A DNA stretch of 64,000 nucleotides from a virus: positions 62,001-126,000 of IMG/VR virus record IMGVR_UViG_3300033183_000299; one strand, given 5' to 3'. Every line of letters starts with the position of its first letter. The stretch's first letter is position 1. Position numbers and translations under genes: made by a program. Below the pieces are notes generated by a model. That model had not been told where the DNA came from. It saw only the letters and a program-made list of their open reading frames with translations, and made no database searches. This document shows positions 1 to 12,182 of the stretch, in pieces.

Positions 1-263
1 TTTGCAATAGTTTTTAGACCATAACCTTCCTCATAAGAACTGGTGAGATAATTTTTGAGAAAAAGAAAGTGGTCTGGATAAATCCTTTCGGCATTATTCC
101 GAATAAAAGATCTTTTATTTGATGATCTCGCAGAATTTCCCATTTGAGACACTCTTGCTGATGCATATTTTCTATATTCTTCCAAGAACTCTTCCGGAAT
201 TACCACTTCCTTTCCCTTGTCTGTGTTATAATAAATAACTTCTAAACATTCTTTTAAATTCAT
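1..263 (-). CDS. Partial gene, probable free-standing homing endonuclease inside the nrdJ split intein
   Basis: The first 87 codons are present; the rest lies beyond the window edge. The ATG at 263 follows a good AAGGAG site (274-280). The peptide starts MNLKECLEVIYYNTDKG and ends in EEGYGLKTIA, which looks like the start of a helix-turn-helix; the catalytic part would be outside the window. It lies directly downstream of an nrdJ N-half that ends in half an intein. In known fractured phage genes (NrdJ-1, gp41-1 type) a free-standing Vsr-like (EDxHD) endonuclease gene sits between the two intein halves. The endonuclease assignment therefore rests on context, not on visible catalytic residues. 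Translation is probably controlled by the hairpin at 262-312. Confidence 0.5.
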   Translation of the reverse strand, partial: MNLKECLEVIYYNTDKGKEVVIPEEFLEEYRKYASARVSQMGNSARSSNKRSFIRNNAERIYPDHFLFLKNYLTSSYEEGYGLKTIA

Positions 264-312
264 TTCGGGCTACACTCCTTACATTATTTTATTGTAAATA
301 GTGGCCCGAAAT
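262..312 (-). promoter_or_regulatory. RNA hairpin hiding the ribosome site, with late-type promoter motif inside
   Basis: On the minus strand, ATTTCGGGC (312-304) and GCCCGAAAT (270-262) form a perfect 9-bp stem whose 3' arm overlaps the ATG at 263. Inside it, CACT pairs with AGTG and TTACA pairs with TGTAA, so the AAGGAG Shine-Dalgarno lies in paired or nearly paired RNA. The motif CTATTTA (301-295), also found before structural genes, lies inside the 5' half of the stem. A transcript starting just downstream of it would lack the 5' arm and free the ribosome site. T4 uses this logic for I-TevI and MobE. Confidence 0.7.
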
Positions 313-322
313 GGCAAAATAA

Positions 323-1624
323 TTATTCAACGAATAAAAGAATGTCCTCTTCGGTTAAATGTGCCGCTTCAACATAGCCTCTGTTTTCAGTGAATACTCT
401 GTGGTCTGGGGTTAGGATTAATTCCTGTCCGTCCTCGGTTTCAATCTTGATGACATCGGCATCTTGTCTCGTAAGAAGACCCTCTTCAACCAACTCAAAC
501 TCCATTGACCCCGTGTTCTCATCAAATGATAAGACCTTTATTTCTTGACCTTCATTGACTTTTGAGACGATCTGTTCGATTGTCATTGTACCAGAATTCG
601 TCTCTATCTCAGTTGAGCCATCCAAACAACATGGGTTGCAACCCCAATCTTTGTCGTTCGAGAAGTAGAAACCGGGCTCTCCAGAGCGAGACTCTTCAAC
701 ACGCTTCCATAGATTCATGAATGTTGGCTTGTCGATCTTGTGACGCATTACAACTACAGAATTATTCGCTCTTCCTCGTTGTGGGTTGAGTTCCCACCAA
801 GCTCCGGCCTTTGCGCTAAGCATGTCTTCGTCATCAGCACTGAATAGACTAATGAGAGCGGCGCGACGAATACCGCCCGCCAAAACCGCATCCGCAATGT
901 GGCAGATGATATCATGAACCTCAATGGGTGAAAGCTTGTCTCCGTTTTCTTTCGCATCTAAAATTCCCTCCACTTTTACCAGACACTCCTTTAATGGCTG
1001 AGGGCCTGGTGCTTTACCACCTGATGTTACAAGTCTCGCACCTTTGGGGCGAATGTCCGAGAAGTCAAAACGCAACTTTGACGTTCCCTTAAAGTGAGAC
1101 ATCATAAGGGCTTTTACAGCATCGGCCCATCCTTCGATTGAGTCACCAATTAAGAAACGACGAGTTCTCTTTGATGAAGGCTTGCGAATCTCTGGGAGGT
1201 TATCTACATGATGCTTTTGCACTGAATAGCCCACACCTGTGCCTCCAAGAAGTAAGAACATGATCTCTCCGAACACTCGAGGATCATCAGCGGGTGCATA
1301 AGCGCAGTTAAAGATGCGGTTCGGCGAAACCTCAATTGGCTTACCTCCAAACTGCATCGATCTCATTGAAGGAAGAACCTTCTTGTCGAACACGAATTTG
1401 TAGTTCTCACGGATCTCTTGCTCGAGACTTGGAAACTTCTTGATGTGCATTTCCATATTACGAGTTACTAACTCGTTCCAGTTTTCTCGACGATTCTTAT
1501 CTTCAAGATATCGTGCATATTTCATGTGGACGGTGATGTCCGACAGAATCTTTTTCTCTAAATCCATACCTTTCTCCTGTAGTTTTTTGTAGTATTCTTT
1601 TTCCTTTTCTGTGTAGGTGTCCAT
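323..1624 (-). CDS. nrdJ: Class II ribonucleotide reductase, N-terminal part, ending in split-intein N half
   Basis: 433 residues. Residues 1-332 match adenosylcobalamin-dependent ribonucleotide reductase of the monomeric RTPR type: LPSMRSMQFGG, the redox cysteine region FNCAY (about residue 106), GGTGVGYSV, SGEPGFYFSN, and the finger-loop GCNPC that normally continues as GEI. The enzyme reduces ribonucleotides to deoxyribonucleotides for phage DNA synthesis. The reading frame then passes into an intein N half (326-628) and stops, so the catalytic core is incomplete. A second gene with the intein C half and C-extein is expected further down the minus strand, beyond position 1. The start at 1624 is 2 nt after the gp41 stop and probably coupled to it. 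No small (NrdB) subunit is seen here, which agrees with class II. Confidence 0.85.
   Translation of the reverse strand: MDTYTEKEKEYYKKLQEKGMDLEKKILSDITVHMKYARYLEDKNRRENWNELVTRNMEMHIKKFPSLEQEIRENYKFVFDKKVLPSMRSMQFGGKPIEVSPNRIFNCAYAPADDPRVFGEIMFLLLGGTGVGYSVQKHHVDNLPEIRKPSSKRTRRFLIGDSIEGWADAVKALMMSHFKGTSKLRFDFSDIRPKGARLVTSGGKAPGPQPLKECLVKVEGILDAKENGDKLSPIEVHDIICHIADAVLAGGIRRAALISLFSADDEDMLSAKAGAWWELNPQRGRANNSVVVMRHKIDKPTFMNLWKRVEESRSGEPGFYFSNDKDWGCNPCCLDGSTEIETNSGTMTIEQIVSKVNEGQEIKVLSFDENTGSMEFELVEEGLLTRQDADVIKIETEDGQELILTPDHRVFTENRGYVEAAHLTEEDILLFVE
326..628 (-). other. Split intein N-terminal half (NrdJ-1-like) within nrdJ
   Basis: 101 residues from C1 (CLDGSTEIET) to the stop. Block A starts with the nucleophilic Cys directly after the NPC of the extein. 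Block B is visible as LTPDHRVFT (residues 72-80), with the TxxH that assists the N-S acyl shift, and a NRGYV...LTEED segment follows. There is no endonuclease domain or C-terminal HN motif before the stop, so this is half of a split intein and not a truncated cis intein. Insertion after NPC is the site known for the NrdJ-1 split intein. The two halves would have to associate and trans-splice to give working reductase. Confidence 0.85.
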
Positions 1625-1626
1625 TG

Positions 1627-2979
1627 TTATTTCCCCATCTTAGCATATTTGTCTTTTAGCATTTGCAGAGCATCCGCTGTTGTTTGCATTTTCTCGGCAC
1701 TTTCATCACGGTCGAGAATGTTGATTGTTACATCAGACCAGTCAACGAAAGCGTCGAAAACTAAGCCATCAGGTCCATTACGATTCTTTGCGACGAATAA
1801 GCGACCTTTGTTGGCCTGCTTATCTTGGACTGTCCGAGACAAAGAAAAGATGAAGTCTGCTACGAAGCATTTGTTGAACGCTTCCGAGATCGCTTCCATT
1901 GTGATGACTTCCGCGTTGAGACCTCCACGATTGGTTTGCGAAGCGGTCCAAATGGGAAACTCATAGGTTTGAGCAAGTCCTCGAAGGCCTTCGTAAGTTT
2001 CTTCCAATTCGTGTCGTTTTTCACCTGAACTCCTAACGGGACGTAATAAGTCCGCATAATCTACTAATACCATGTCTGGCTCAATGCCTCGCTTACGCAA
2101 CTTCTCAATATGATTCTTGAGAGTTTGGACTGAAGCAGACTTGGTTGGGTACTCTTTAATTATGAGTGTTCCATCAATATCTTTAATCTTTTGAACGATT
2201 TCTTTTTGTCTCATTCTGTGCTCTTGCAAAGGCACGTCTGAGATACAGCAATCAAATCTTTGACCCACGACGGTGTCCTTAAGTTCGAGTGTATAGTAGA
2301 CCACAGTTTTCCCTTCGAGTAATGCACGAGACGCGAGGTGAACCAGAACCATAGACTTACCAGCACCGGTGGGAGCAATAACAACTCCAAGCTCAGATTT
2401 TCCAAGACCGCCTTTGCAAATCTCATCCATTCGTGCCCATCCAGTTGAGACTGGATCTCGTGACACCAATTCAAAACGCTTAAGCAAATCTTTGCGAAAG
2501 TCATGGCCAAAGTTATTGTCGGTTCCAAGAACTAAGGCCTCCTTGATCACTTTCTCGATCTCTTCAAATGATGATGATTTCAGTAATTTTGCTGACTTAA
2601 GCATCGCTCCTTTGAGAACTTGCTTTCGGCAAAAGTCGAGAGCCTTATCTTTAATGTATTCAGCTTCCTCAACTCCGTCTGAAGTGTGGATTCTCGCATA
2701 GTATTCGCGAACAGCTTGAGCGGTTGCTTTATCGTGATGATTGAGTTCTGTCCTTAATAGGGACATCATGACTTCTGAGTTAGGATGGGTATTGTATTTG
2801 TCTCGATAATTCACGAGAGTTTGAGCGAAGATTTGTATATACTTCTTCTCAAAAAAGTTAATATCCAATACCTCCATGATCTGATCGAAAAAGGGTCGAT
2901 CTTCAAGCATAAGTTGTGCTAGTTTCTCTTGGAAGTTCTTTCCAAAGCGTGTAAAAGTTTCATTTTGTGTTAAATCCAT
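1627..2979 (-). CDS. Replicative DnaB-type helicase (T4 gp41-like)
   Basis: 450 residues. A helical N-terminal domain (about 1-160) is followed by a RecA-like motor: Walker A APTGAGKS near residue 205, YYTLELKD (motif H1a-like), Walker B MVLVDYADLL near 305, and WTASQTNRGG near 345. It should form the hexameric 5'-3' helicase at the phage fork and work with gp32 and the polymerase. The length is close to T4 gp41 (475), and there is no intein, although gp41 is a common split-intein host in related phages. The ATG at 2979 follows GGAGGACAA and lies 30 nt downstream of a near-consensus promoter (3008-3036). nrdJ follows 2 nt after the stop. Confidence 0.9.
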   Translation of the reverse strand: MDLTQNETFTRFGKNFQEKLAQLMLEDRPFFDQIMEVLDINFFEKKYIQIFAQTLVNYRDKYNTHPNSEVMMSLLRTELNHHDKATAQAVREYYARIHTSDGVEEAEYIKDKALDFCRKQVLKGAMLKSAKLLKSSSFEEIEKVIKEALVLGTDNNFGHDFRKDLLKRFELVSRDPVSTGWARMDEICKGGLGKSELGVVIAPTGAGKSMVLVHLASRALLEGKTVVYYTLELKDTVVGQRFDCCISDVPLQEHRMRQKEIVQKIKDIDGTLIIKEYPTKSASVQTLKNHIEKLRKRGIEPDMVLVDYADLLRPVRSSGEKRHELEETYEGLRGLAQTYEFPIWTASQTNRGGLNAEVITMEAISEAFNKCFVADFIFSLSRTVQDKQANKGRLFVAKNRNGPDGLVFDAFVDWSDVTINILDRDESAEKMQTTADALQMLKDKYAKMGK

Positions 2980-3007: not shown

Positions 3008-3036
3008 AGTATAACCTGTTTAGATCAACTTGTCAA
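3008..3036 (-). promoter_or_regulatory. Sigma70-type early promoter for gp41/nrdJ
   Basis: TTGACA (3036-3031), 17-bp spacer, TATACT (3013-3008). It belongs to a family of nine promoters in 3-17 kb that share TTGACA, exactly 17 bp, and a (A/G)(T/G)GTTAT-type -10 region. Confidence 0.8.
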
Positions 3037-11566: not shown

Positions 11567-11595
11567 ATTATAACATAGTTTTGATAACTTGTCAA
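11567..11595 (-). promoter_or_regulatory. Consensus promoter directly before tRNA fragment no. 2
   Basis: Perfect TTGACA (11595-11590), 17-bp spacer, perfect TATAAT (11572-11567). The -35 hexamer overlaps the stop codon of the HNH gene ending at 11592. Confidence 0.88.
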
Positions 11596-12182
11596 GTATT
11601 TTTATAAGATTTTTGATATCTCTCTTTTCTGCAAGAATTTTTGTTTTTAGATTTGTAAGTCTCTAATTGAGAATCACAATTGTGACAGATTAGTCTGAGA
11701 TTATTTCTCATATTGTTAGATGCTCGACCATCAATATGATCCAAGATAAAATTCAACTCTTTCCCATTCCACTCATTCTTCATTCCGCAAATATCACAAC
11801 GCTCCGCCTGCTCTTTCAATATCCAAGGTTTTACAAAACGCATGTTTCTATCATTACAATATTCTTCTTGATTGCTTATGAAGTGAAGATATTTTTTTTG
11901 CCTTCTATGTTCAGACGAACAAAAATGAGAGCAGAACTTGGCATTCTTGCTAGGGCTTTTAAATTCACTCTTACAATACATACATTCCTTATGTCTTCCT
12001 AGACCAGCATTGTGAGGTTTCCAGCCAGAAGGATTCTTCTGTCTTATTGGAAGGGTTATTCCCAACTTTTTAGAAACTTTTCTAATATATGCTCCAGAGA
12101 CACCATAGAGTTTTCCGATTTTCTCATAAGATAGATTTTCTTCAAAGATCAGTTTTTCTAATTCTTCTTTTTTGTATTTCAT
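11592..12182 (-). CDS. HNH homing endonuclease with N-terminal helix-turn-helix
   Basis: 196 residues. The N-terminal helix-turn-helix (LSYEKIGKLYGVSGAYIRKV, about 17-36) is followed by a zinc knuckle ECMYCKSEF...KFCSHFC, then CDICG...LNFILDHIDGRASNNMRNNLRLICHNC, the HNH core with DHIDG and the asparagine loop. This combination is common in free-standing phage homing endonucleases. A GGAGG site precedes the ATG at 12182, and the hairpin 12175-12205 covers both. It lies between tRNA-Arg and the tRNA fragment at 11524-11561. Confidence 0.85.
   Translation of the reverse strand: MKYKKEELEKLIFEENLSYEKIGKLYGVSGAYIRKVSKKLGITLPIRQKNPSGWKPHNAGLGRHKECMYCKSEFKSPSKNAKFCSHFCSSEHRRQKKYLHFISNQEEYCNDRNMRFVKPWILKEQAERCDICGMKNEWNGKELNFILDHIDGRASNNMRNNLRLICHNCDSQLETYKSKNKNSCRKERYQKSYKNT

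Follow-up and report, generated by a model that had tools for sequence, protein, structure and literature searches.

The leader of a putative homing-endonuclease gene nested in the split-intein nrdJ gene of a phage very probably acts as a translational switch, which would be off early and on late in infection. An RNA hairpin pairs the ribosome-binding site and start codon of this gene, and its 5′ part holds CTATTTA, the predicted late-promoter motif of the phage. The window analyzed, a stretch of 64,000 nucleotides, corresponds to bases 62001–126000 of a parent phage record of 183,930 bases (G000, IMG/VR record IMGVR_UViG_3300033183_000299), which encodes a gp23-like capsid protein of T4 type and carries 210 of its 229 ORFs on the minus strand. 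Along this strand, an early promoter is followed by the helicase gene, the NrdJ N-terminal half with the intein N-part, the hairpin, the endonuclease gene, the intein C-part with the NrdJ C-terminal half, and an HNH gene (table 1). The window edge truncates the endonuclease ORF, whose complete form in the parent record encodes 275 amino acids and shares 49 nt with the beginning of the intein-C/nrdJ-C ORF. Sequence prediction found no terminator on the minus strand between the early promoter and the hairpin. Early transcripts driven by this strong sigma70-like promoter would thus provide the read-through from gp41 and nrdJ that was assumed in an earlier note on this DNA.

Table 1. Features of the helicase–nrdJ region (window positions, unless a locus is named)
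Feature	Position	Strand	Basis
Sigma70-like early promoter of the helicase–nrdJ operon, TTGACA-17-TATACT	3008..3036	−	Sequence prediction
gp41/DnaB-like helicase, first gene of the operon	1627..2979	−	
NrdJ N-terminal half fused to N-terminal half of split intein	323..1624	−	
Outer stem, 5′ arm (CATTTCGGGC)	304..313	−	Fold
Inner helices 303-300/276-273 and 298-293/283-278, loop 292-284	273..303	−	Fold
Predicted late-promoter motif CTATTTA	295..301	−	Genome-wide motif behaviour
Predicted late transcription start, 6–8 nt past the motif	287..289	−	Inferred by analogy with T4 late promoters
Shine–Dalgarno AAGGAG, 11 nt before the ATG	275..280	−	Sequence
Outer stem, 3′ arm (GCCCGAAATG), containing the whole ATG	261..270	−	Fold
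Start of putative PD-(D/E)xK homing-endonuclease gene, 275 aa	1..263, continuing beyond the window to L002:9436	−	
Intein C-part and NrdJ C-terminal half	L002:9484-8441	−	
Second endonuclease gene (HNH), after nrdJ	L002:8360-7803	−	

Folding the RNA of positions 330–255 (minus strand), a check suggested in the earlier note, gave a minimum free energy of −24.0 kcal/mol against a mean of −9.8 (SD 2.5) for shuffled sequences (z = −5.6), and none of 200 shuffles was as good. The perfect outer stem described before is present, but it counts 10 bp (313–304 with 270–261) instead of 9 (312–304 with 270–262), so that all three bases of the ATG (263–261) are paired. Both inner helices recur in the fold. 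Five of the six bases of AAGGAG are paired, mostly in these helices, and CTATTTA (301–295) lies in their 5′ strands, in agreement with the sequestration of the Shine–Dalgarno region and start codon and the location of the motif in the 5′ half of the stem described previously. The occlusion of the ribosome site, 18.5 kcal/mol, ranks third among 203 G000 leaders (mean 6.1), after the HNH gene following nrdJ and a UV-endonuclease-like gene that has its own promoter within its hairpin. A search of the first 3 kb against Rfam returned no match. As no T-run follows the stem, an intrinsic terminator was rejected.

CTATTTA is almost certainly the late promoter of this phage, since it is enriched upstream of ORFs and precedes tail-sheath, head–tail, and head genes. 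The 184-kb phage contains 44 copies on the coding strand versus 5 on the other strand, and 21 of the 44 are upstream of ORFs, where about 2 are expected. Of the 7-mers upstream of ORFs, CTATTTA is one of the most enriched, ranking first in one count and second in another of different design, and it sits 24–48 nt before the starts of the genes for the tail sheath, the head–tail adaptor, and other head or structural proteins. This genome-wide behavior supports the late-type promoter assumed in the earlier note, as well as its difference from the T4 motif: the T4-type late-promoter octamer TATAAATA has no copy on the coding strand of G000. Among the papers searched, none links CTATTTA to the term "late promoter". 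TTGACA-type sites form a second promoter class in G000. By analogy with T4, an RNA initiated at the late-class promoter in the 5′ part of the hairpin would lack the 5′ arm. On the coding strand of G000, G007, G003, and G002, the motif is often extended to TATTTATA, the reverse complement of the T4 late consensus.

In silico, an RNA that begins at the predicted start, and so lacks the 5′ arm, has an accessible ribosome site, consistent with the proposal that the late RNA would be translatable. For an RNA starting after CTATTTA, the cost of opening this site falls from 18.5 to 1.8 kcal/mol and that of the Shine–Dalgarno from 7.1 to 1.5; with starts varied from −4 to +14 nt around the end of the motif, the latter cost drops from 7.1 to 1.3–2.5 kcal/mol at every position. 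When the 21 G000 genes with the motif and a Shine–Dalgarno were ranked for release, the two nrdJ-linked endonuclease genes came first and second (9.9 and 5.6; median 0.3). The top gene is likewise an endonuclease gene in G007 (13.1, first of 23), G002 (13.3, first of 13), and G006 (10.8, first of 12). Median release is 8.0 for 21 leaders (20 split-intein endonuclease genes and the G000 HNH gene) and 11.5 for 38 HNH homologues, compared with 0.76 for 547 control ORFs (p = 1e-7 and 7e-10, respectively, the relatives not all being independent). In this comparison and in the scan of start positions, the G000 start was set one base 5′ of the ATG, which barely altered the values. Short motifs are common, and an AT-rich promoter might meet an inverted repeat by chance; given the fold z-score of −5.6, the comparisons with 547 control ORFs, and the presence of the device in both nrdJ-linked endonuclease genes of the genome and in most homologues, such a coincidence is extremely improbable.

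The hairpin could also be a constitutive brake or couple translation of the two genes: if ribosomes ending at the nrdJ-N stop opened it, the timing would depend on nrdJ translation instead of a late promoter. About 10 nt separate the stop codon from the 5′ arm downstream, and a terminating ribosome could touch the base of the hairpin. However, when up to 18 nt beyond the stop are blocked, opening still costs 7.1 kcal/mol for the Shine–Dalgarno and 14–24 kcal/mol for the whole site. Nor does this reading account for the recurrence, from one phage to the next, of a phage-specific promoter motif in the 5′ half, and we consider it very unlikely.

In the late-start mechanism that we favor, early RNA from the sigma70-type promoter would extend beyond nrdJ-N to include the endonuclease gene. 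With the complete hairpin folded, the Shine–Dalgarno and ATG would be hidden, so that the nrdJ halves would be made but not the nuclease. Late in infection, the polymerase would start just 3′ of CTATTTA, inside the hairpin, and the short RNA devoid of the 5′ arm would be translated. We infer the 5′ ends, the timing, and the translation of the endonuclease message. One likely benefit would be to keep ribosomes off the 49-nt overlap, as early translation of the endonuclease could interfere with production of the second NrdJ half; another would be to delay cutting until replicated copies are available for repair.

The 275-aa protein is a candidate PD-(D/E)xK nuclease, with an E, PD, ExK catalytic motif and a predicted common core fold. 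E172, RPDF 201–204, and E217xK219 are invariant in eight endonuclease sequences, and the structure model resembles XisH, Bax1, TnsA, and VRR-Nuc, all at weak scores. A search of PDB sequences with the endonuclease profile gave no match. Neither this endonuclease nor that of L128 had a match among named phages, and we therefore found no cultured phage carrying it. Intein_splicing matches both intein halves, each slightly under the Pfam cut-off, and the host gene is, by its sequence, a split-intein nrdJ with the endonuclease gene between its halves, as in fractured genes. The split arrangement is conserved in many loci, and the nrdJ site at NPC/CEIG is empty in L007 and others. As nrdJ is uninterrupted at NPC/CEIG in most close relatives, the split intein and endonuclease gene represent an insertion; both empty and occupied sites exist among close relatives, and as a putative homing endonuclease the protein would cleave the empty site and drive its own insertion. 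The related cultured Microcystis phage Mel-JY01 also has an uninterrupted nrdJ, and in this phage a ATATTTAT motif precedes structural genes.

A scan for close homologues with the 275-aa protein alone yielded nothing, and the relatives came from a query across the intein–extein junction. This search recovered numerous loci in which an endonuclease gene separates the two halves of a split nrdJ. The leaders of these loci fold into hairpins that are unrelated in sequence and hold a promoter-like motif in the loop or 5′ part: CTATTTA in L100, L103, L105, L117, and L131, TATAAATA in L121, L158, and L159, and ATATTTAT in L128. The HNH gene after nrdJ in G000 has the device too, as do HNH homologues, many of them after nrdJ (e.g., L181–L184, L187, L190–L192, L201, L207, L208, L213, L215, and L222). 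Altogether, it is present in most of the homologous split-intein and nrdJ-flanking endonuclease genes examined.

The earlier note had predicted that pairing would be kept among relatives through paired changes, and many relatives do keep the stem with a changed sequence. In six close HNH leaders (A6), 95.5% of the cells are paired in a 19-bp helix, versus 39–62% when the arms are slid; two pairs are changed on both sides. The helix does not strongly exceed within-column shuffles. A C-G pair shared by G000 and L100 is replaced by G-C in L105, as is the A-T of G000 at the start-codon pair. MAFFT places the 5′ arm wrongly in A5, so these pairs were read by hand. Divergence of the stems, some of them new sequence, keeps column-by-column covariation modest, and conservation of the Shine–Dalgarno itself in the MPRKSKYDG HNH family limits variation. 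The prediction fails in L102, the one clear case of a stem broken without compensation next to an intact endonuclease ORF, and L134, L144, and L147 show neither release nor sequestration by the measure used. L105 has ACG (L105:2644) at the position homologous to the start ATG. Its likely start lies 4 nt past CTATTTA, and the late message would then either have no leader or begin too late to contain this start.

The inverted repeat overlaps the promoter, and instead of an RNA switch it might be a transcription terminator or a DNA operator, for example one through which the nuclease represses its own promoter; I-TevI is known to do so via an operator over its late promoter (PMC2988022). Such a role is very unlikely, as pairing is kept in relatives while the sequence changes, and the leader matches the empty homing site at 13 of 20 positions, a score equaled by 42 of 150 shuffles. 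Operator-like similarity of the leader to the homing site is therefore not above shuffles.

For eight phage records, the hairpin motif also belongs to the upstream motifs enriched in that record: CTATTTA in G000, G007, and G003, ATATTTAT in G002, ATAAATA in G001 and G005, TATAAATA in G004, and TGTGTATA in G006, with low motif counts in the small records G001, G004, and G005. As each hairpin holds the phage's own promoter motif, the switch appears to evolve with the promoter and not as a fixed sequence. On balance, we favor the view that it is a general, repeatedly rebuilt accessory of RNR-linked phage endonuclease genes (PD-(D/E)xK, HNH, and GIY-YIG; in split inteins and after nrdJ). This would bring split inteins under the kind of timing control described for T4 introns. 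It also suggests that an endonuclease within an essential early gene must stay silent during early expression, irrespective of its fold or the splicing mode. A hairpin whose motif is enriched elsewhere in the genome could make late-promoter motifs of uncultured phages readable from sequence, and offers a way to find endonuclease genes.

The late promoters of T4 I-TevI, I-TevII, and I-TevIII lie inside hairpins that sequester the ribosome-binding site (PMC2988022, PMC3014915). As in the I-TevI system, the endonuclease gene is located in an early nucleotide-metabolism gene, the hairpin of the read-through RNA hides the ribosome-binding site, and RNA from a late promoter situated in its 5′ part would lack the hairpin (PMC2988022, PMC3014915). 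The T4 genes belong to group I introns and use TATAAATA, whereas here we find a split intein, a putative PD-(D/E)xK nuclease, and CTATTTA. Early translation of I-TevI harms splicing of its host intron (PMC2988022). The mobE gene of Aeromonas phage Aeh1 is likewise an endonuclease gene that interrupts a ribonucleotide reductase gene with no intron involved, and it has a hairpin over its ribosome-binding site and a late promoter (PMC2988022). MobE is an HNH enzyme, whereas the nrdJ halves described here bear split-intein halves. The halves of Aeh1 nrdA function as separate pieces. In T4 gene e, late promoters are also located in a hairpin through which the longer early transcripts are kept from being translated, and soc is listed alongside it for sequestration of the ribosome-binding site (PMC3014915); unlike the gene studied here, these are not endonuclease genes. 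Fractured genes, in which a free-standing endonuclease gene lies between the halves of a split-intein host, and inteins in nrdJ were reported by Dassa et al. (2009), as cited in PMC3653736, a citing text that describes no hairpin or promoter. The earlier note had compared the gene to I-TevI and MobE and placed it in a split-intein host, and the analysis supports both points. The logic of the switch is already known from I-TevI and Aeh1 mobE; the extension concerns hosts with split inteins, nucleases of other folds, and promoters unlike those of T4.

Other arrangements were observed around nrdJ. A different HNH gene at the nrdJ 3′ end (L007:7751-8326, L020:6972-7562) has a hairpin-like leader with CTATTTA before its start, and L007 carries a tandem pair of endonuclease genes. 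In L195, L198, and the window HNH gene 11592–12182 (minus strand), a terminator-like hairpin is followed by the late motif, an alternative way of isolating a gene from read-through; the window gene is preceded by a tRNA-like sequence, and CTATTTA lies before its Shine–Dalgarno. A diverged second copy of the nrdJ 3′ end follows the G000 HNH gene (L002:7664-7855, minus strand), and the duplication is also present in L007/L093 and L051/L094. This HNH gene may have been inserted together with its own replacement nrdJ tail.

A similar arrangement, with sigma70-type promoters, may control some of the early genes of this phage. The UV-endonuclease-like gene (G000 minus strand, start at window coordinate −9816) and about seven other early genes have a TTGACA-type promoter inside a hairpin pairing the Shine–Dalgarno. 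In G000, release exceeds 5 kcal/mol for 8 of 23 early-promoter genes versus 11 of 160 genes with neither motif. The early-promoter class accounts for 7 of the top 11 leaders (hypergeometric 2e-5, for a class chosen after looking), and a rank test against no-motif genes gives p = 0.08. A 15-bp inverted repeat, AAAACGTGTTATACT...TATAACACGTTTT, spans the −10 of an early-type promoter at L002:7449-7401 (minus strand).
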